This document shows positions 3,597 through 13,106 of a stretch of DNA of 13,106 bases, piece after piece. The notes beneath the pieces were generated by a model. The model ran no database searches, was not told where the DNA came from, and worked only from the letters and a program-made list of their open reading frames with translations. A program made the position numbers and the translations under genes. The stretch's first letter is position 1, and every line of letters starts with the position of its first letter. This DNA is from Acidobacteriota bacterium (GTDB lineage: Bacteria > Acidobacteriota > Vicinamibacteria > Vicinamibacterales > UBA2999): NCBI GenBank assembly GCA_947465645.1, contig CANIBQ010000118.1, forward strand, positions 1-13,106, written 5' to 3'.

Positions 3597-4358
3597 ATGA
3601 GGAACGTCCTGGCCTCGGCCTCGGGCGTACATCGAACTGACCTCGACGTCCTTCAGCAGCACAGGCGCGTCTGGGCGGCCCGGGCCGAGCTTCGCTCCGT
3701 ATATCAGGAATTCTTTGACGCACTCCTCGGCGCGGCAGGGGATCGGCGGCCGATTGTGGAATTGGGCGCCGGCCCAGGCTTCTTCAAGGAATACTGCCCA
3801 CGTCTCATTGCCGCCGATGTGCTGCCAGTGGACGGTGTGGACCTCGTCTGCGATGCGTGCGCGCTGCCGTTCACGCACGGGTCGGTCGGCGCGATAGTAC
3901 TCCTGGATGTCTTGCACCATCTGCCACGGCCGCTGGATTTCATGACGGAGGCGGCGCGTGTGCTTGCGCCCGGCGGTCGCCTGGCGATCATCGAGCCATG
4001 GATGACGCCGGCGTCATACCTCCTGTATCGATATTTCCATCATGAAGAATGCCGCCTGGGCGTCGACGTGGCGAGGCCATTTGCGACGTCGGGGAAGCGC
4101 GCCTTTGACGGCAATGCGACGATTCCGTTCAAACTCATGCGGCACTACCGTACGACACCGCCGCCTCTGCAGTTGGTGCGGCACGAGCCGTTTCTGGCGC
4201 TCCCCTATCTCGCGACGCTCGGTTTCAAGAGGAGCGGCCCACTGCCGCGCTCGTTGATCGGGATGGCCCGCTGGCTGGAGACGGCGCTCGGGCCGATCGG
4301 ACGATGGAATGCGACGCGCGCACTGCAGGTGTGGGAGAAGCCAGCGGTCAAGGCGTGA
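3597..4358 (+). CDS. Class I SAM-dependent methyltransferase (Methyltransf_11-like)
   Basis: A 253-residue Rossmann-fold methyltransferase. Motif I is VELGAGPGF (54-62). A degraded acidic-loop region follows, with VDLVCDACALPF (81-92) as the binding segment. Motif IV-like LLDVLHHLP is at 102-110, and EAARVLAPGGRLAIIEPW (118-135) is the typical post-motif helix and strand. The C-terminal half, with RYFHHEE and an aromatic-rich stretch, is probably substrate-specific. The UbiE/Methyltransf_11 superfamily acts on many small molecules. A sugar, lipid-linked sugar or aminosugar substrate is inferred from the neighbours. ATG 3597 directly abuts the TGA of the amidotransferase gene and has no Shine-Dalgarno of its own, so translation by re-initiation is likely. 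The 3' end overlaps the convergent minus-strand gene by 11 bases, with no terminator between them. Confidence 0.85.
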   Translation: MRNVLASASGVHRTDLDVLQQHRRVWAARAELRSVYQEFFDALLGAAGDRRPIVELGAGPGFFKEYCPRLIAADVLPVDGVDLVCDACALPFTHGSVGAIVLLDVLHHLPRPLDFMTEAARVLAPGGRLAIIEPWMTPASYLLYRYFHHEECRLGVDVARPFATSGKRAFDGNATIPFKLMRHYRTTPPPLQLVRHEPFLALPYLATLGFKRSGPLPRSLIGMARWLETALGPIGRWNATRALQVWEKPAVKA

Positions 4359-5835
4359 AGTAGAGTTTCGCGGCCGCCCGGCCGGACATCCTCAGCAACA
4401 GCCAGCCATCGCGGAACCGATTGATGTTGGTTGACCCGTAGGTTCGCTGCCGATATCGAACGGGCACTTCGACGATTCTCAGGTTCAGCTTCGCCGCGCC
4501 AAACAGCAGATCGAAGTCGCCGAACGGATCGAGCGCGCCGAAGTAGGCGCGGCCACGGGCCAGCTTCTCATAGGTCGCCCTCCAGAGAACTTTCGTCCCA
4601 CAGAGACCGTCCTTGAGCGATTGCCCCATCAGCGTGCTCAGCAGCAGGGCGAAGAACCGGTTGCCGAGCAGGTTGAGGAATCGCATGGCCTCCGGATCCA
4701 TGGTGTAGACCAACCGGCAGCCGTTCACGAAGTCGCCCTTTCCCTCCACCAGCGCTTCGTAGAAGATCACCAGATCTTCGGGAGGCACGCTGAGGTCCGC
4801 GTCCAGGATCATCAGGATGTCGCCCGTCGCGTGCGAGAACCCGAGCCGTACCGCGTCACCCTTGCCCTTCCCCTCCTGTACCAGCACGCGGATGTCCTTG
4901 TCGGGTCTTGCCGCGGCAGCGCGCCGGCACTCGGCGAGCGTCTCATCAGCGGAGTGGCCTTCGACGAAGATGAGCTCCGTGCGCGAGCCGAGCGACGGAA
5001 GGCGGTCGACGATCTGCTGAATATTGCCGGCTTCATTTCGACAGGGACACACAATCGAGACCGAGGGCGCCGCCGCGTGCTGCTCGACGGACAACGGACG
5101 GACAACGAGCCAATTCGTGAGGCACAGGTGGCGTACCAGCGGCACATGCGCCAGGAATCGGTTCGCGATCGTGTTCGCGACCGGCACACGCGCAGGCAGG
5201 AGGACCCGGCGCTGATGGCGGACCACCTCGTAGTCCGTCAGGTAGAGCAGATTGGTGATGTCTTCGACGGTGGTCCAGTTGAGGAGCGGCTGCGGGTACT
5301 TGCGCCCCAGACGTTCCGCCAGCGACAGCACCGGCTGCCAGAGGCGGCTGTACCAGTGGATCACTATCCGCGTCTGCGGATGGCACACCGAGCGCAGACG
5401 TTCGAACACCAGACGGATGTCGTACAGAAATCCCACCAGGTCCGAGAGCACGATGTAGTCGAACGTCTCGCCACCCAAGTCGAGTTGTTCGGCCGGCATC
5501 TGGCGGAATTCGAGGTGGGGATGCCTTGCCGACGCGAGGCGCACCATCTCGCCGGAAATATCGATGCCCAGTCCGCGCGCGGGCCTGGTGGCAGCCAGGA
5601 GATCGCCGGTTCCACTCCCGATCTCGAGCACGCTCGCATCCGGCGGGACGTAGAACTGCGCGATCGATGAAAGCGCCGAATAGTAGCCGGCATTGCGGTC
5701 GTGCCATGACTCGACCGAGGAAGCGTAGTGATCGAAGAAGGCTTCCCAGCCGCTCAGGTACTCGTCGATCGTCACCGGCGGGCGATCGGTCCGGATGCTC
5801 TTGACCCATCCAGCGTAGGTTTCTTGGCGCATCAT
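4348..5835 (-). CDS. Fused SAM methyltransferase and polyprenyl-phosphate-sugar-synthase-like GT2
   Basis: One uninterrupted frame joins two enzymes; residues are numbered from the ATG at 5835. The N-terminal half is a class I methyltransferase with motif I VLEIGSGTGD (69-78), LGIDIS (89-94) and FDYIVLSDLVGFLYD (125-139). After a linker near 245-257, a family 2 glycosyltransferase starts at SVSIVCPCRNEAGNI (258-272). It continues with LIFVEGHSADET, QEGKGKGDAVRLGF (320-333), ILDADLS (343-349, the metal/nucleotide Asp site), DGLCGTKVLWR (409-419) and YGSTNINRFRDG (466-477). That order is typical of DPM1/DPG-synthase-like enzymes, which transfer a hexose from an NDP- or GDP-sugar to a polyprenyl phosphate on the cytosolic side. 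There are no C-terminal TM helices. Start choice: the frame can begin at ATG 5877, but its first 14 codons are AT-rich at third positions and overlap the opposite gene, so ATG 5835 (or 5832) is preferred. The methyl acceptor is unknown. Confidence 0.85.
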   Translation of the reverse strand: MMRQETYAGWVKSIRTDRPPVTIDEYLSGWEAFFDHYASSVESWHDRNAGYYSALSSIAQFYVPPDASVLEIGSGTGDLLAATRPARGLGIDISGEMVRLASARHPHLEFRQMPAEQLDLGGETFDYIVLSDLVGFLYDIRLVFERLRSVCHPQTRIVIHWYSRLWQPVLSLAERLGRKYPQPLLNWTTVEDITNLLYLTDYEVVRHQRRVLLPARVPVANTIANRFLAHVPLVRHLCLTNWLVVRPLSVEQHAAAPSVSIVCPCRNEAGNIQQIVDRLPSLGSRTELIFVEGHSADETLAECRRAAAARPDKDIRVLVQEGKGKGDAVRLGFSHATGDILMILDADLSVPPEDLVIFYEALVEGKGDFVNGCRLVYTMDPEAMRFLNLLGNRFFALLLSTLMGQSLKDGLCGTKVLWRATYEKLARGRAYFGALDPFGDFDLLFGAAKLNLRIVEVPVRYRQRTYGSTNINRFRDGWLLLRMSGRAAAKLYFTP

Positions 5836-5878
5836 GTTGGTGAACACCGCAATGTTACTATCCGTAACCAGTCGCATG
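5833..5878. promoter_or_regulatory. Divergent start region with two short inverted repeats
   Basis: This segment between two divergently read genes is clearly less GC-rich than its surroundings (about half G+C). It holds GGTG-AA-CACC (5839-5848) and GTTAC-TATCC-GTAAC (5854-5868). Either could be an operator for a dimeric regulator or simply chance. The starts could be ATG 5835 (minus) and ATG 5876 (plus), leaving about 40 bases between them. Alternatively they are the overlapping ATGs at 5877 (minus) and 5876 (plus). I see no convincing -35/-10 pair with proper spacing on either strand. Confidence 0.3.
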
Positions 5879-6575: not shown

Positions 6576-7232
6576 GTGAGGATCGCGCATTGGACGGGCA
6601 TCGGATGGTGGCTCATGCCCGTGCTCTACGCCGTGCTGCTTGCGGCCCCGAGCGCCACACTACCCGGCGATGGTCTTGGCATCCGCGTCTTCCAGACACC
6701 GGCGCTCAGCCCGTCCCTCCGGCTCGGACAGACCTTTACGATGCCGGGCGATGGCTTTCATGCCATCGAGATATTCCCGTCTGCTGTCGGTGGAACAGTG
6801 TCTGGGAAAGTTCAGTTGGAGCTTCACGAACTCGATAGCGGCCACCGCGAAATCGCCCTCGTACGCACAGCAGAGGCGTCGGCGAGCGACGTCGTGGGCG
6901 CTCCATCCTATCGATTCGAATTTGCGCCAATCGTCGATTCCAAGGACCGCGCGTACCGGTTTGATCTCATCGCGTCCGAAGCGGAAGGCGTGGCGTTCTG
7001 GGCCACCAAAGGGAACCGCTACGCTGGCGGCGCGATGCACGCGAATGGTCGCGGTCGCTGGGCCGATCTGGCGTTTCGCGTCTACGCGCCGAATCCCTCT
7101 GTGTGGGGACGGCTCATGATGCTGCGCGACACCAATCCGGTGCGCGCCTACCTGGTGATCGCCGCCGGTCTGGCCGTCTGGCTGCTCCTCGGCTTCTTCT
7201 TGCGCGCGATAGAGGCCATTCCCGCCTCATGA
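6576..7232 (+). CDS. Two-TM protein with predicted beta-sandwich ectodomain
   Basis: A 218-residue protein starting at GTG 6576. A hydrophobic segment at about 9-27 acts as signal or anchor. A soluble domain of about 160 residues follows, and a second TM at about 191-210 precedes a short tail. The soluble part is rich in beta-prone strands: GQTFTMPGDGFHAIEI (51-66), GKVQLELHEL (77-86), YRFEFAPIVDSKDRAYRFDL (112-131), AFWATKGNRYAGGAMHANG and WADLAFRVY (162-170). This succession resembles a jelly-roll domain that I recall joined to large membrane glycosyltransferases. That is memory, not a search result, and no function is assigned. The stop overlaps the next start as ATGA (7229-7232), so it is translationally coupled to the GT-C-like protein and probably partners it in the periplasm (inference). 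Longer in-frame versions (from 6408 or 6528) run into the preceding gene and are Arg/Ser-rich, so they were not chosen. Confidence 0.72.
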   Translation: MRIAHWTGIGWWLMPVLYAVLLAAPSATLPGDGLGIRVFQTPALSPSLRLGQTFTMPGDGFHAIEIFPSAVGGTVSGKVQLELHELDSGHREIALVRTAEASASDVVGAPSYRFEFAPIVDSKDRAYRFDLIASEAEGVAFWATKGNRYAGGAMHANGRGRWADLAFRVYAPNPSVWGRLMMLRDTNPVRAYLVIAAGLAVWLLLGFFLRAIEAIPAS

Positions 7233-8923
7233 GTGTGCCCGCCACCGCCGCCGACCAGATTGGCGGCCCGGCCCCGCTGGCGTACGCGGCCGCCGCCCTG
7301 GTCGGTGTGTTCGGGTTCGCTTTCCGGTTCCTGGCGCTGCGCGGCCTTCCGAACGACCACTACATCTACCTCTCGGCGGCGCAGCAGATCGTGCTCGGTG
7401 ACGTGCCAGGACGCGACTTCGTCGAGCCCGGGATGCTGCTCCAGTTCCTGATCTCCGCCGCAGGCCAGGCGATTGCGCCGGGGCCGTCAACGGAGGCCGT
7501 GCTCACGGCCGGGCTCCTCGCGCTGGCGGCGGCCGTGACGTGCGTCGGCGTGTCCTGGCTGACGCGATCGACGATCGCGGGCGCCCTCGCGGGCCTCTTC
7601 CAGATCCTCGTCTTCACTCGCCTGTACTCGTTTCCAAAGGTTCTTGTGCCGGCGGTCCTGCTCCTGCTCGCCCTGGCCTATGCGCGGCGACCCGGCACGA
7701 CGCCGCGCGCGCTGCTGGCCGCGTGGATCGCCGTCGCGTTCCTTCTCCGCCACGACATCGGCGCGTATGCAGCCATCGCGGGCGCGTGCGCCGTCGGCCT
7801 GAGCCATCGTACGGTGGGCAGCGCCGTGCGCGCGTGCGCGATGCTGACGGCGACCGTGCTGCTGGTCCTCCTGCCGTACTTCATCTATCTCGAATGGAGC
7901 GGCGGCATCGTCGAACACGTGCGCGGTGCATTCGAGTACGGCAACGCGGAATCGGGCGGGTTCAACTTCCCGTGGCCGGCTATTCGGTTCGGTCCCGCGG
8001 CTCGTGCGGCCGGCGCGGTTCCCTGGAGCAGGGATGATTCGGCCGCGTACCTGTATTACGTCGCCTGCAGCCTGCCGCTGCTTTCGGCGGTGCTCCTCAC
8101 CACGGTCGCCGAGCATCGCCGCCGCGCGCTGACGCGCGCCGGCGTGGGCAGTGCCATCGTGATCGCCCTCTTTTACGACGTGATCATTCTTCGTCACCCG
8201 GTCATCACTCGCGTGCAGGACCTGGCGGCCGTCTACGCCATCCTCGGCGCCTGGACCGTCGTCGCGCTGCTGCGCATGATCCTGGGATCGCGCCCCGCTG
8301 CCGTGCTGTCGTGGCGTGCGATTCCGACTGCCGCCGTGGTCGGGGCGGTGGCCGTCGCCGCCTTCAGCGTGAACGTGCTCGCCGAGCTGCCGGACGAACT
8401 CGACGAGGCGAGCCTCTTCAATCCGCCGTCGGTGCTCAGGGACCATGCGCGCGAGGTGATGGCCGCGGGGCGCGACTGGCCGTGGCGAACGTTCTGGCCC
8501 TCGGGCTCACCTCCCGACGCCGTTGAGTACGTCAATGCCTGCACCAGGCCCGACGAGCGTATCTGGGTGACGTGGCCAGCCCCTGAGTGGTACGTATTCA
8601 CGCGGCGAGGCTTCGGCGCCGGACATGCGAACACGCTGTCGCCGCATTCCTACAAGACGATTGCCGATCAGCAACTGGTGATTGCCCGGCTCGATCGGAA
8701 CCGCGTACCGATCGTCCTCATCAATGAGTCGACTCGTCCTGAATTCGCCGCCGCCTATCCGCGCGAAGATGAGTACCTGCGGAGACTCTACGTTCCGTCA
8801 GGGCAATTCACCATCCGCGACGGCTCGACGATCTCGATTGCCATCCGGCGCGGGCTGAAGGCGACTGGTACGTACGGAGCCGAGGCATGGCCATGCCGCT
8901 TCGTGGCCGCCCCGGCCGGATAG
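7229..8923 (+). CDS. Multi-pass membrane protein, GT-C-like glycosyltransferase
   Basis: A 564-residue integral membrane protein with about ten to twelve hydrophobic segments between residues 16 and 385 and a soluble C-terminal domain of about 180 residues. After TM1 comes PNDHYIYLSAAQQIVLGD (41-58), then GRDFVEPGMLLQF (61-73). This is the acidic first loop plus 'G..P.RDF..P' pattern of GT-C enzymes (ArnT/PMT-like), in which an Asp in this loop is catalytic. LLRHDIGAY (172-180) is a second family-like motif. GT-C enzymes take sugars from polyprenyl-phosphate donors at the outer membrane face. A suitable donor could come from the GT2 fusion encoded at 4348-5835 (inference). Acceptor and sugar are unknown. 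The start is ATG 7229, overlapping the previous stop; the frame extends to 7103, but that added segment is an Arg-rich shadow of the previous gene. The gene's 3' end carries the Shine-Dalgarno of the next gene. Confidence 0.75.
   Translation: MSVPATAADQIGGPAPLAYAAAALVGVFGFAFRFLALRGLPNDHYIYLSAAQQIVLGDVPGRDFVEPGMLLQFLISAAGQAIAPGPSTEAVLTAGLLALAAAVTCVGVSWLTRSTIAGALAGLFQILVFTRLYSFPKVLVPAVLLLLALAYARRPGTTPRALLAAWIAVAFLLRHDIGAYAAIAGACAVGLSHRTVGSAVRACAMLTATVLLVLLPYFIYLEWSGGIVEHVRGAFEYGNAESGGFNFPWPAIRFGPAARAAGAVPWSRDDSAAYLYYVACSLPLLSAVLLTTVAEHRRRALTRAGVGSAIVIALFYDVIILRHPVITRVQDLAAVYAILGAWTVVALLRMILGSRPAAVLSWRAIPTAAVVGAVAVAAFSVNVLAELPDELDEASLFNPPSVLRDHAREVMAAGRDWPWRTFWPSGSPPDAVEYVNACTRPDERIWVTWPAPEWYVFTRRGFGAGHANTLSPHSYKTIADQQLVIARLDRNRVPIVLINESTRPEFAAAYPREDEYLRRLYVPSGQFTIRDGSTISIAIRRGLKATGTYGAEAWPCRFVAAPAG
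8876..8879 (+). promoter_or_regulatory. Ribosome binding site for the FkbM-like gene
   Basis: GGAG lies seven bases before ATG 8887, inside the last codons of the GT-C-like gene, with a further GAGG at 8882-8885. This favours the early ATG 8887 (or 8893) over the ATGs at 8938 and 8950, which have no such site. Confidence 0.5.
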
Positions 8924-10073: not shown

Positions 10074-10595
10074 CTACTGGGTCTCCGACAGGGTTCTAAG
10101 CAATGGCGCGTCGCCAGCCTCGATCTCGCGACACGGTTCCGTAGACGGACCGTCGTCATCCCTCCTCAGCACGCGGACGATGTCCTCGTTCCGCAACGCC
10201 TCCGCAAGACAGACCGCCTTCCTGTTCGCCGCGCGATCCATCCGGACGCCGAACGCCAACAACATCTGCACGGCCTGCGGGTTCTGGACGGCGGTCGCCC
10301 ACACCACGGGCGACACGAGCACCGATCGTCCGCCTGTCAACACCGGATCGCGAACCGCGATCAGGTCGTTCGGATCCTGCCCACGGTGAATGAAACCGTA
10401 CGCCTGCAGCAGGTCCCCCTGCGCAATGGCATCGCCCAACGAGTACGCCAAGGGCGTGTCGAAGGGGGACGGCGGCCGAAGCACACGCCAGGCTCCCACC
10501 GCGGCAATCCCGAGCGCCACGACGAGGGTCGGGGCCGCGACGAGCAGCGCGACGCGCCGCTTCAGGCGGGCCGGATCCCGATCGACCGCGTTCAC
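10074..10595 (-). CDS. Small membrane-anchored ankyrin-like protein (module copy A)
   Basis: A 173-residue protein with a basic N-terminus (R6, R10, K12, R13, R14) and one TM helix at about 15-35, followed by two or three degenerate ankyrin-like units. Unit 1 is about 52-76 (SLGDAIAQGDLLQAYGFIHRG). Unit 2 is about 94-119 (LVSPVVWATAVQNPQAVQMLLAFGV). A shorter one at 128-143 contains CLAEALRNEDIVRVL. Ankyrin repeats bind proteins; the partner here is probably the membrane protein encoded just upstream (inference). GTG 10595 overlaps that gene's TGA as GTGA and has GGAG eight bases upstream, so the start is well supported. The frame continues to 10862, but only as an out-of-frame shadow. It is paralogous to the protein at 12035-12538, with the same TM, ankyrin and CLA layout. 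With N-in topology the repeats would lie in the periplasm by the positive-inside rule. Confidence 0.75.
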   Translation of the reverse strand: MNAVDRDPARLKRRVALLVAAPTLVVALGIAAVGAWRVLRPPSPFDTPLAYSLGDAIAQGDLLQAYGFIHRGQDPNDLIAVRDPVLTGGRSVLVSPVVWATAVQNPQAVQMLLAFGVRMDRAANRKAVCLAEALRNEDIVRVLRRDDDGPSTEPCREIEAGDAPLLRTLSETQ

Positions 10596-12031
10596 GCCGG
10601 CAGCTCCGCGATGAACCGGCGCAGCAGGCTGGGATAGCGGGTGGGACGAGGCGCCCCCTGGGCGGTGCCCTGTTCGATCATCGATTCCATGATGCGCAGA
10701 TACGTTGCGCGGTCCTTGAATTCCAGCCGACGCTCGGGCAGCAGGAGAAACCACTCCGTCTGATTTCTCGTCGAGGTGAGCCGCGTGCGCTCGACCGTGC
10801 CCAGCGCCCGCAGTTGCCAGCCGCCGACGATGGCCATCAACGCCACGCCGATGAGGGCACACCGCACCCGCGGCGCCTGGAGCGCGTGGGCGGCGGCCGA
10901 GCGGATGGCGTAATACGCCGCGAGCGCGTAGAACGGCACGGCCATGCCGCCGAGCCGGTCACGCGAATAGTTGAAGCTCAGGACACCGCACGCAAGGAGC
11001 GTGACCAGCAGGGTGACGACGAGGCGCGCCTCTTCGGACCACCCCTCGCGGATCGCCCGCCTCGACGCGTTGACGCCCCACCATGCCATGACCGCGGTCA
11101 TCCCCACCGACGACCCGAGATGTACGAGCTGCCACGGTTCAGGATGAAGGCTGCGGACGATCGCGCGAATGATGGAAAACGTGCCGCGGGTCGGTTCGGC
11201 GAAGAGCACGTTGGCGATGGTGCTCAGGCCGCTGTACGCATAGATCAGATACGGGAACGAGCCATAGCGCGCCACGGCTTCCGGAGGTTCCATCTCGCCG
11301 AACCCAAACCCCACCGCCTGCTCGAACATCGGCCATGACTGGCGCCAACTGAAGCGAAAGACGATGTACGCCGCGGTCATGACGACGACGGCGGCCGCCG
11401 TGACGCCGCGCGCGCCGGGCGCACGCGTCCACCAGGCGATGACGATCAGCGGCACGAGCACCAGTCCCTGTTCCTTGAAGCCGACCGCGACGAGCGTGAG
11501 GAGGACGATGACCGGCTGATGCCACGCTCGTGATGGCCGATTCAGCAGGATCCATGCGCCGAGCGCGAGCGGCATGCCGATGATCGTGTAGCTCAGCGGA
11601 AGCTCGAGGTTGTCGCGGAAGCCGGGGCTGCCGACCAGAATCGCCACAGCCGCCGCGGCGGCGGCGGCGTCCAGGAGCCCGCGCGGCCGCAGGTGCCAGA
11701 TGAACAGCAGAACCAGCACGAGGATGGGCACGATGTGCAGCAGCTTGATCCACGCGAGCGTCGCCTCGAGCGACGGCGCCTGGCGCCAGATCGTCCCTAT
11801 CGCGATCTGGAAGAGCGGGCGGTAATACGAGGTGTCCGGCGTCAGGAACCGGGCAGGCGGCTGATTCACGACGTCCTCGAAGATCGCCACCGCCTCGGAG
11901 ATCGGAAACGGCATGCGCCAGAGCGTGAGACAGAGAGCAGCCACGACCGGCGCGCACGCCAGCAGCACGGCGGCCGTCCACAACCACGGCCGCCCGTTGG
12001 AAAGAGCGTCGTCGGTGTCGTTGCTCGGCAT
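10592..12031 (-). CDS. Multi-pass GT-C-like membrane protein (module copy A)
   Basis: A 479-residue protein with about ten hydrophobic helices (first at about 16-38, last near 390-405) and a soluble tail of about 70 residues. After TM1 comes an acidic loop, FEDVVNQPPARFLTPDTSYYRPLF (two pieces, 51-60 and 61-74). A Tyr-Tyr-Arg-Pro motif there, and GFKEQGLVLVP (184-194) on a later helix, resemble the YRP and 'KE' motifs I associate with TMTC/PMT-like GT-C glycosyltransferases. No TPR domain is present. The role is probably sugar transfer from a polyprenyl-phosphate donor at the periplasmic face (inference); a non-catalytic membrane protein remains possible. The start is ATG 12031, three bases after the stop of the upstream ankyrin-like gene. 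The stop overlaps the downstream ankyrin-like gene. Residues 280-380 align collinearly with the start of the window-edge fragment at 12510-13106, showing common ancestry. Confidence 0.72.
   Translation of the reverse strand: MPSNDTDDALSNGRPWLWTAAVLLACAPVVAALCLTLWRMPFPISEAVAIFEDVVNQPPARFLTPDTSYYRPLFQIAIGTIWRQAPSLEATLAWIKLLHIVPILVLVLLFIWHLRPRGLLDAAAAAAAVAILVGSPGFRDNLELPLSYTIIGMPLALGAWILLNRPSRAWHQPVIVLLTLVAVGFKEQGLVLVPLIVIAWWTRAPGARGVTAAAVVVMTAAYIVFRFSWRQSWPMFEQAVGFGFGEMEPPEAVARYGSFPYLIYAYSGLSTIANVLFAEPTRGTFSIIRAIVRSLHPEPWQLVHLGSSVGMTAVMAWWGVNASRRAIREGWSEEARLVVTLLVTLLACGVLSFNYSRDRLGGMAVPFYALAAYYAIRSAAAHALQAPRVRCALIGVALMAIVGGWQLRALGTVERTRLTSTRNQTEWFLLLPERRLEFKDRATYLRIMESMIEQGTAQGAPRPTRYPSLLRRFIAELPA
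10604..10607 (-). promoter_or_regulatory. Ribosome binding site for ankyrin-like copy A
   Basis: On the minus strand GGAG lies eight bases before GTG 10595, inside the end of the GT-C-like gene. Together with the GTGA stop/start overlap it fixes this start and implies coupled translation. Confidence 0.55.
11655..11669. repeat. Short GCG triplet run
   Basis: Five GCG/CGC triplets in a row encode the alanine stretch at about 122-128 of the GT-C-like protein read on the minus strand. Slippage here would change the number of Ala residues without breaking the frame. It lies in a predicted membrane helix and is probably of little consequence. Confidence 0.5.
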
Positions 12032-12034
12032 GTC

Positions 12035-12538
12035 TTAGCTCACTGTCCCGGTCGCCTGCGGCGGAACGCCGCAGGGCCCTGCTGAAAGATCGAACGCATC
12101 TTGCAGCAGAGCCGCCGCCTCTGCGGCCTCGACCTCTGCCGCCAGGCAATAGAGGCGGCGCATTTCCGGCGGCGGCGGACGCACGCCCAGATCGAGGAGC
12201 ACGCCGACGACGGAATCACCGCGCCGCCGATCACCGGCTTCGAGGCGAATCGCGGCTTCAAGGGGAGACATCGTGGGGGGGGCGTCGCCCTCCCGAAAAT
12301 CCGGCCGGACAGGCTGGGGCAGATCGAGCCGCGCGCCGCGTGCGGCCAGCGCCCGGACGCGGGCGGCGTCGCCGAGCGCGGCCGCCTCGGCGATGTTGGC
12401 GGTCGGCGTCGGCCAGAACCACGAAGCCACCGGCGGTACGCCCAGCGCGAGCATCAGGCTGAACACACCGAGCAGCAGGGGTGCGGCCGACGCCAGTCCC
12501 AGCGCGAGGCTACTGAACTTCGAGGTACGGTTCGACAC
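12035..12538 (-). CDS. Small membrane-anchored ankyrin-like protein (module copy B)
   Basis: A 167-residue protein with basic residues at R4 and K7 and a TM helix at about 10-33. An ankyrin-like unit at 48-72 (NIAEAAALGDAARVRALAAR then GARLD) is followed by a Pro/Asp-rich spacer. A second unit at 91-120 contains SPLEAAIRLE and VVGVLLDLGV, and LYCLAAEVEAAEAAALL is at 129-145. The order TM, 'A..GD...V..L...G', 'SP...A', 'V..LL.(F/L)GV', 'CLA' is the same as in the protein at 10074-10595, so the two are paralogues. The start GTG 12538 lies inside the end of the upstream membrane-protein gene (29-base overlap). No good Shine-Dalgarno is visible, so coupled translation is likely. A later start would lose the TM helix. 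The function is unknown; binding to the partner membrane protein is inferred. A run of eight C (minus strand) lies mid-gene. Confidence 0.7.
   Translation of the reverse strand: MSNRTSKFSSLALGLASAAPLLLGVFSLMLALGVPPVASWFWPTPTANIAEAAALGDAARVRALAARGARLDLPQPVRPDFREGDAPPTMSPLEAAIRLEAGDRRRGDSVVGVLLDLGVRPPPPEMRRLYCLAAEVEAAEAAALLQDAFDLSAGPCGVPPQATGTVS
12275..12282. repeat. Homopolymer of eight G/C inside ankyrin-like copy B
   Basis: Eight G on the plus strand (eight C in the coding sense) encode the end of A86 and P87-P88 of the ankyrin-like protein at 12035-12538. The frame is intact here, because both ankyrin-like units on either side read through. A run of this length is prone to replication slippage and to sequencing error. 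Confidence 0.6.
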
Positions 12539-13106
12539 GTCGTTGTTTGGTGAAGGTCGGATGAGGGACGTCGAGCGAGAGGTTCCGCTGCCTTAGACTC
12601 AAGAACGCGCGTCGCGTCGGCTCGAAGCCCCAGTCGGCAGGCAGCTCGCGTTCGAGCGAATACAGCGCCCAGTCGTTGGCAACTTTGTACGCGGACGACT
12701 GCAGGGAGACAAGAGTGCCGGCCGCACGCGTACTCCAGAGGACGGACGCGCACACAAGTGCCAACGCCGCCACGACGTGGGCATTCCGGCGTTCCCGTAC
12801 GCGATCCCCGAGGCCGGCCAGGACCGCAAAGGCGCCCCCGGCATAGAACGCGACGCCGACGCTCAGCACTTCGTCCTTCACGTAGCCGAAGCTCAGCACG
12901 CTGTTGGCGCCCACGAGCGCGAACGCCAGCAGCACAAAGCGATCACGCTCGTCGAGTGCTCCGCGGCGCCAACGTGCCAGTGCGGGCACGAGGGCCATCA
13001 ACATCGCGCTGGTAACGATCGCGCTCGACGCGACGTGGATCAGCATCCAGGGGTGCACGTCGGCGTCCAGCACGTGCCGCACGACCGAGAAGGATCCGCC
13101 GCGCGG
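12510..13106 (-). CDS. C-terminal part of GT-C-like membrane protein (module copy B; 5' end outside window)
   Basis: The minus-strand frame is open from the window edge to TAG 12510-12512 (198 codons) and continues beyond 13106, so a GTG at 13082 is not its real start. It shows hydrophobic helices at about 22-42, 55-75, 82-100 and 110-127, then a soluble tail of about 65 residues. The first 100 residues align with residues 280-380 of the protein at 10592-12031 with a single one-residue shift. Shared landmarks are GSFSVVR/GTFSIIR, PWMLIHVASS/PWQLVHLGSS, VLSFGYVKD/VLSFNYSRD and VAFYA/VPFYA. By eye about 30% of positions are identical, and the helix layout matches. The catalytic-loop end that would test a glycosyltransferase role lies outside the window. 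It overlaps the following ankyrin-like gene by 29 bases. Confidence 0.75.
   Translation of the reverse strand, partial: PRGGSFSVVRHVLDADVHPWMLIHVASSAIVTSAMLMALVPALARWRRGALDERDRFVLLAFALVGANSVLSFGYVKDEVLSVGVAFYAGGAFAVLAGLGDRVRERRNAHVVAALALVCASVLWSTRAAGTLVSLQSSAYKVANDWALYSLERELPADWGFEPTRRAFLSLRQRNLSLDVPHPTFTKQRRVEPYLEVQ

Follow-up and report, generated by a model that had tools for sequence, protein, structure and literature searches.

In this work we analysed a 13,106-nucleotide stretch of an Acidobacteriota genome (contig CANIBQ010000118.1 of assembly GCA_947465645.1; hereafter the window), in which two consecutive gene pairs, memB-ankB and memA-ankA, each encode a large membrane protein and a small ankyrin-like protein. 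Our results make it probable that the two proteins of a pair are the subunits of a glycosyltransferase that depends on a polyprenyl-phosphate sugar and works outside the cytoplasmic membrane, and that the window holds two paralogous cognate pairs. The evidence was obtained computationally and consists of both predicted folds, a genome-wide association, fusions, co-divergence and conserved motif residues. The large subunit would be a GT-C-fold enzyme with TMTC/GT105-like motifs, transferring a sugar from a polyprenyl-phosphate carrier to an acceptor at the outer face of the membrane. Its small partner would be an ankyrin solenoid held at the same face by one transmembrane (TM) helix, or joined to the C-terminus of the enzyme when fused. 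It may dock on the C-terminal side of the enzyme, where TMTC proteins have TPR repeats, and serve either to present or choose the acceptor or to keep the enzyme in its proper shape. A sequence-only reading of this DNA had noticed the two pairs and proposed the small protein as an accessory or specificity subunit of a candidate undescribed system. Its observation was confirmed, and its main interpretation is supported by fold, adjacency, fusions and co-divergence. Neither of two possible refutations, small proteins lacking an ankyrin fold or a lack of adjacency in other genomes, was borne out; in addition, a dedicated pairing of an ankyrin protein with a GT-C glycosyltransferase was not found described in the open-access literature searched (subscription papers and preprints lie outside this scope).

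The gene order on the minus strand is memB (partial)-ankB-memA-ankA, and coordinates and sequence agree with the same layout in both pairs (Table 1). The GTG start of ankA shares GTGA with the TGA stop of memA, GGAG stands eight bases upstream, and 3 bases separate the ankB stop from the memA ATG. Among downstream relative pairs, 26/40 have a start codon at the 4-nt stop/start position. The memB/ankB overlap has the same length in L092 and L077 and is 23 bases long in L107, these being the three nearest relatives common to memB and ankB. The large proteins are 26% identical over the aligned part, and their subfamilies match profile-to-profile at E 1.8e-63; the collinear landmarks (VLSFNYSRD/VLSFGYVKD, FYA and PWQLVHLGSS/PWMLIHVASS) are present in both. 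The ankyrin-like proteins, at 22-23% identity, have the TM helix, the ankyrin units and the CLA motif in common.

The adjacency of the large protein and its ankyrin partner is near-obligate across genomes. The large-protein profile found the family at no fewer than 64 places in 24 of the 193 genomes of the class to which the genome of locus L001 belongs, five of these genomes (G001-G005) having been found via the family itself, and in at least 7 of 396 genomes sampled across the phylum, all seven among the 24; up to 7 copies occurred in one genome. Because only the best 8, 4 and 19 candidates per genome were scored in the 193 genomes, the 396 genomes and the ankyrin search, respectively, members may be missed. 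An independent ankyrin search gave matches in 79/193 genomes at E ≤ 1e-5, and 54 strong places (at least 44.6 bits, 18 genomes) were among the matches listed, with the weaker rows starting from 41.4 bits down. We observed that 53/54 strong places were within 3.5 kb of a family place, 49 of them within 500 bp and 47 of those on the same strand, whereas 0/10 weaker rows compared were near one (distances are between matched stretches, not gene ends). The lone unpaired strong place has a contig end about 160 bp away. Conversely, 55/64 family places had an ankyrin match within 3.5 kb; of the nine others, three have a contig end less than 220 bp away and six are lower-scoring members. Gene order varies, the ankyrin gene being mostly downstream and sometimes upstream. 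L083 (G126:C5:70800-87800) carries a tandem array of three enzyme-ankyrin pairs, and two DegT genes and one Gfo/Idh gene stand between and after these pairs. The records of L003, L004 and L007 are titled Acidimicrobiia, and their genomes (G003, G004) fall in the class of G001, an Acidobacteria-titled record; since both are counted in the same class, one public taxon label looks wrong.

In ten cases the two proteins are fused in frame: nine among the best 120 of 439 large-protein homologues (a second protein listing gave the best 120 of 261), and one at genome locus L005, which is the same as L063. The single ORF (open reading frame) L103:1315-3072 (+), a candidate fusion of the divergent subfamily, was dropped from this count, as an out-of-frame-looking stretch lies between its halves; it is likely a frame artefact reflecting assembly error or decay. 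Moreover, the distances among large proteins followed those among their ankyrin partners (r 0.79 over 43 pairs; 0.72 over 52 within-genome comparisons), whereas shuffling partners within genomes gave 0.10 ± 0.08 overall and 0.10 ± 0.14 within genomes, and the observed value was reached in 0/5000 shuffles by either measure. The set comprised 41 genome pairs (one of 42 was dropped for a short GT-C match) and the two window pairs, all with the ankyrin gene downstream on the same strand; L103 and the true fusion L063 were kept as whole ORFs. L054, L053 and L059 are the three nearest relatives common to memA and ankA. Every gene of the window has closer relatives among the pairs of other genomes than in the neighbouring pair, which argues that the window pairs represent two old subfamilies. 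Thus, the earlier idea that the pair diverged as a unit holds for the co-divergence of cognate partners, but a recent local tandem duplication does not fit.

The predicted structure of P0021, a fusion homologue 66% identical to memA, shows the GT-C fold, and supports the earlier assignment of the large protein. Eleven TM helices were counted by hand from the predicted helix list, and TM1 of P0021 ends at residue 36, ahead of the loop bearing the conserved acid. Motif residues (Table 1) were counted in 60 of the 64 family ORFs, the 4 partial ones being dropped; 6 rows lack an ankyrin gene, one of them (L106) at a contig end. Among the 120 homologues listed, 12 (P0088, P0089, P0090, P0092, P0094, P0098, P0101, P0103, P0109, P0114, P0119 and P0120) are lengthened at the N-terminus by an unnamed part of at most about 165 aa (amino acids), with an HVRW..THNIDR pattern and TM-like stretches, and neither P0094 nor P0088 gave a Pfam match. 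A similar stretch is seen in L006:7482-9389 and, separately from the family core, in the 887-aa protein of L003:11298-13961. The long N-termini of L066, L081, L100, L074 and L064 were judged by eye to be spurious upstream frames.

Predicted structures of the small proteins show stacked ankyrin helix pairs, and so support an ankyrin fold; in the ankA model a TM helix at 8-39 is followed by three such pairs. At E ≤ 0.01, PF00023 was matched by 40/93 aligned ankyrin members, and ankA itself matched only Ank_2 at E 0.21. A family-specific Arg82 hairpin is present in 89/93. Cys155 is presumably the disulfide partner of Cys129 in the CLA motif (Table 1). These counts hold for the long forms that make up the 93-member alignment; sixteen short, Cys-free relatives of 102-130 aa lie outside it (P0129, P0131, P0133-P0135, P0137-P0139, P0141-P0143, P0155, P0161, P0165, P0166 and P0208). 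Among slices of the ankyrin domain, 12/43 have fewer than two Cys, as slices can end before the second one.

Table 1. Features of the window; amino acid numbers refer to the encoded protein.
Feature	Position	Strand	Remarks
memB	13106..12510	-	C-terminal 198 aa of second GT-C-family membrane protein; divergent subfamily; runs off window
ankB	12538..12035	-	167 aa, GTG start; TM-anchored ankyrin-like partner of memB
memB/ankB 29-base overlap	12510..12538	-	
memA	12031..10592	-	479 aa, ATG start; membrane protein with predicted GT-C fold
ankA	10595..10074	-	173 aa from GTG; partner of memA; predicted TM helix and three ankyrin-type helix pairs
GGAG, 8-base spacer and GTGA overlap of memA/ankA	10592..10607	-	
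memA Glu46 codon	11894..11896	-	acid in first loop after TM1; E in 13/13 close, D in 47/47 divergent members
memA Arg71-Pro72 codons	11816..11821	-	YYRP motif; 60/60 members
memA Lys186-Glu187 codons	11471..11476	-	KEQG motif at TM5/TM6 break; position 187 E in 59/60, D in the remaining one
memA Arg357 codon	10961..10963	-	basic residue before TM10; K or R in 59/60
ankA Cys129 codon	10209..10211	-	CLA motif; 93/93 aligned long forms
ankA Cys155 codon	10131..10133	-	91/93 aligned long forms
Methyltransferase-GT2 fusion	4348..5877	-	best NCBIfam match of GT2 half AglJ, E 3.5e-31, below cut-off
Long hydrophobic protein	7103..8923	+	606-aa ORF; no Pfam/NCBIfam match at thresholds used

Three lines of evidence suggest that the ankyrin domain is extracytoplasmic and may contain a disulfide, although none proves it. 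If the large protein has 11 TM helices and its acid-bearing post-TM1 loop is outside, its C-terminus would be outside as well. The ten true fusions carry the ankyrin domain behind this C-terminus, with no anchor: the most hydrophobic 19 residues score 0.73-1.45 in nine fusion tails (P0040 was left out) versus 2.57 in ankA and 2.06 in ankB, and all ten carry two Cys 25-26 residues apart. In addition, the standalone ankyrin forms have a mean net charge of +0.88 before the TM helix versus -0.54 after it, the former being positive in 82/123.

Several observations weigh against the two-subunit glycosyltransferase. Six members away from contig ends had no ankyrin gene found nearby, and the five of them among the 60 ORFs counted keep the acid and RP, which implies that the ankyrin protein is not needed for the core. 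The Foldseek E-values for the GT-C fold were 0.006 or worse, and the Pfam/NCBIfam search of memA gave no significant match. Lys186 is restricted to the close subfamily, being lost in the divergent one, and the profile alignment of the close subfamily starts after the DD of TMTC proteins, so that Glu46 corresponds to DD by position only. Four of the 11 TM helices have only 15-16 residues, and simple hydropathy gives 8 for memA and P0021 and 10 for P0091. Cys is absent altogether in 16/125 listed ankyrin relatives, and a Cys pair 20-34 residues apart is missing in 7/54 genome ORFs (some short or cut) and present in 47/54. These Cys and TM counts slightly weaken the argument on sidedness. The putative interface comes from the pTM (predicted TM-score) of a modelled natural fusion.

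Elsewhere the window encodes a cluster of sugar and methyltransferase genes, with two FkbM-type methyltransferases, a TIGR04372 glycosyltransferase, an asparagine synthase, the methyltransferase-GT2 fusion and two further methyltransferases. Among 102 neighbours of family members, scanned with no control region beside them (102 of 338 ORFs called by a crude rule on third-position GC content, GC3, after a first choice of 150), there were matches to GT2 (11), DegT aminotransferase (8), a methyltransferase family (9) and epimerase/dehydratase families (4), and the best names, below cut-off, were PseC, LegB and UDP-GlcNAc 3-dehydrogenase. In L094:55-2313 (+) a GT2 domain (PF00535, E 1.9e-23) precedes an ankyrin-less family member within one protein, which hints at the sugar donor. 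Such a joining would be expected if GT2 loads a polyprenyl-phosphate carrier then used by the GT-C enzyme; this fusion and the GT2 neighbours would be at most indirect signs of sugar transfer from a polyprenyl-linked donor. Surface glycans are the acceptors towards which the neighbourhood leans, and the likeness to TMTC would lean towards proteins.

It is conceivable, though we think it rather less than probable, that the ankyrin protein serves the GT-C enzyme as stabiliser, assembly factor or regulator and is not an acceptor-recognition subunit. Pseudomonas AnkB and the catalase KatB offer a comparison for an ankyrin protein in such a role, and both AnkB/KatB and periplasmic ankyrin proteins turn up by title in paper listings. 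Just three repeats were modelled, and the Arg82 hairpin and the Cys pair would suit docking no less than recognition. A pair-specific role predicts the co-divergence with paralogous enzymes seen within genomes, but a pair-specific stabiliser would show the same. Between acceptor selector and enzyme stabiliser the choice is close to even.

We consider it doubtful that the large protein is a glycan polymerase, a ligase or a lipid-sugar binding protein of surface polysaccharide assembly, with the ankyrin protein as its link to assembly proteins. The many polysaccharide-type neighbours and the window cluster would suit such a role. However, the loop-1 acid, RP, the TM5/6 Glu and the basic residue before TM10 are kept across both subfamilies, and the GT2-GT-C fusion exists. 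That the two genes simply share a transcript as neighbours and function independently is very improbable: both do lie in gene-dense regions with polysaccharide-type genes, but ten in-frame anchorless fusions, the 53/54 association and co-divergence speak against it. A toxin-immunity pair was rejected as hardly credible, for although ankyrin immunity proteins (Imm-ank) occur in polymorphic toxin systems (PMC3482391), the partner is a predicted GT-C membrane protein, fusions keep both halves in one chain and the neighbours are of glycan type; no toxin family appeared in the 25 of 92 families displayed for the 102 neighbours, in a scan that included no dedicated toxin search.

The closest known systems to the proposed glycosyltransferase are TMTC1-4/GT105 and bacterial PF08409-type proteins, GT-C O-mannosyltransferases of which the TMTCs carry TPR repeats. 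The motifs given for TMTC proteins are DD and YRP in EL1, KE(T/Q) in EL3 and R before TM10 (PMC7801869). The memA family resembles them in its loop-1 acid, YRP, KE(Q) at TM5/6, the basic residue before TM10, the 11 TM helices counted by hand and a helical-repeat domain after the last TM helix on the loop-1 side; it differs in having one acid (E or D) instead of DD and in the loss of the K of KE in the divergent subfamily. Its repeat domain, in contrast to TMTC, is of the ankyrin type and usually forms a separate protein with a TM anchor. In hhalign comparisons TMTC-type profiles reached only 76-94% probability, but the reversed controls gave 1-8%, which helped the suggested likeness; a D in register with DD was seen only in the ankyrin-less set. 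PF08409 and TPR, two marks of TMTC/GT105, gave no match in memA up to E 1, and a comparison of the memA family with PDB sequences, including solved GT-C enzymes, gave nothing at E ≤ 1. The Pfam/NCBIfam matches of the four proteins of the two pairs, including GlpG and L-aspartate oxidase, were all sub-threshold and were taken as noise.

The solved GT-C enzymes ArnT, PglB/STT3, PMT and AftD/Emb have accessory domains of other kinds, and to our knowledge GT-C enzymes act either as single chains or within large complexes. On the ankyrin side, the solved 'Ankyrin-like protein, AnkB' (9iq8), listed by Foldseek for ankA with no organism stated there, has the same fold; the partner of Pseudomonas AnkB is a catalase and not a GT-C enzyme, and we know of no fused form of small bacterial ankyrin proteins such as AnkB. 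As a speculative extension, the system might be a bacterial counterpart of TMTC: paralogous GT-C O-glycosyltransferases, each with its own separate or fused ankyrin acceptor-recognition subunit, so that one genome could glycosylate several distinct secreted or surface clients. A cognate subunit that is separate in some genomes and fused in others is a natural series for asking what solenoids do for GT-C enzymes, a question that also arises for the TPR domain in human TMTC proteins. Proteins that carried, where names were given, only 'hypothetical protein' or 'ankyrin repeat domain-containing protein' can now be named a probable surface glycosyltransferase system. Each half has a known fold, and what is new, within the literature searched, is their dedicated, co-diverging and sometimes fused pairing.

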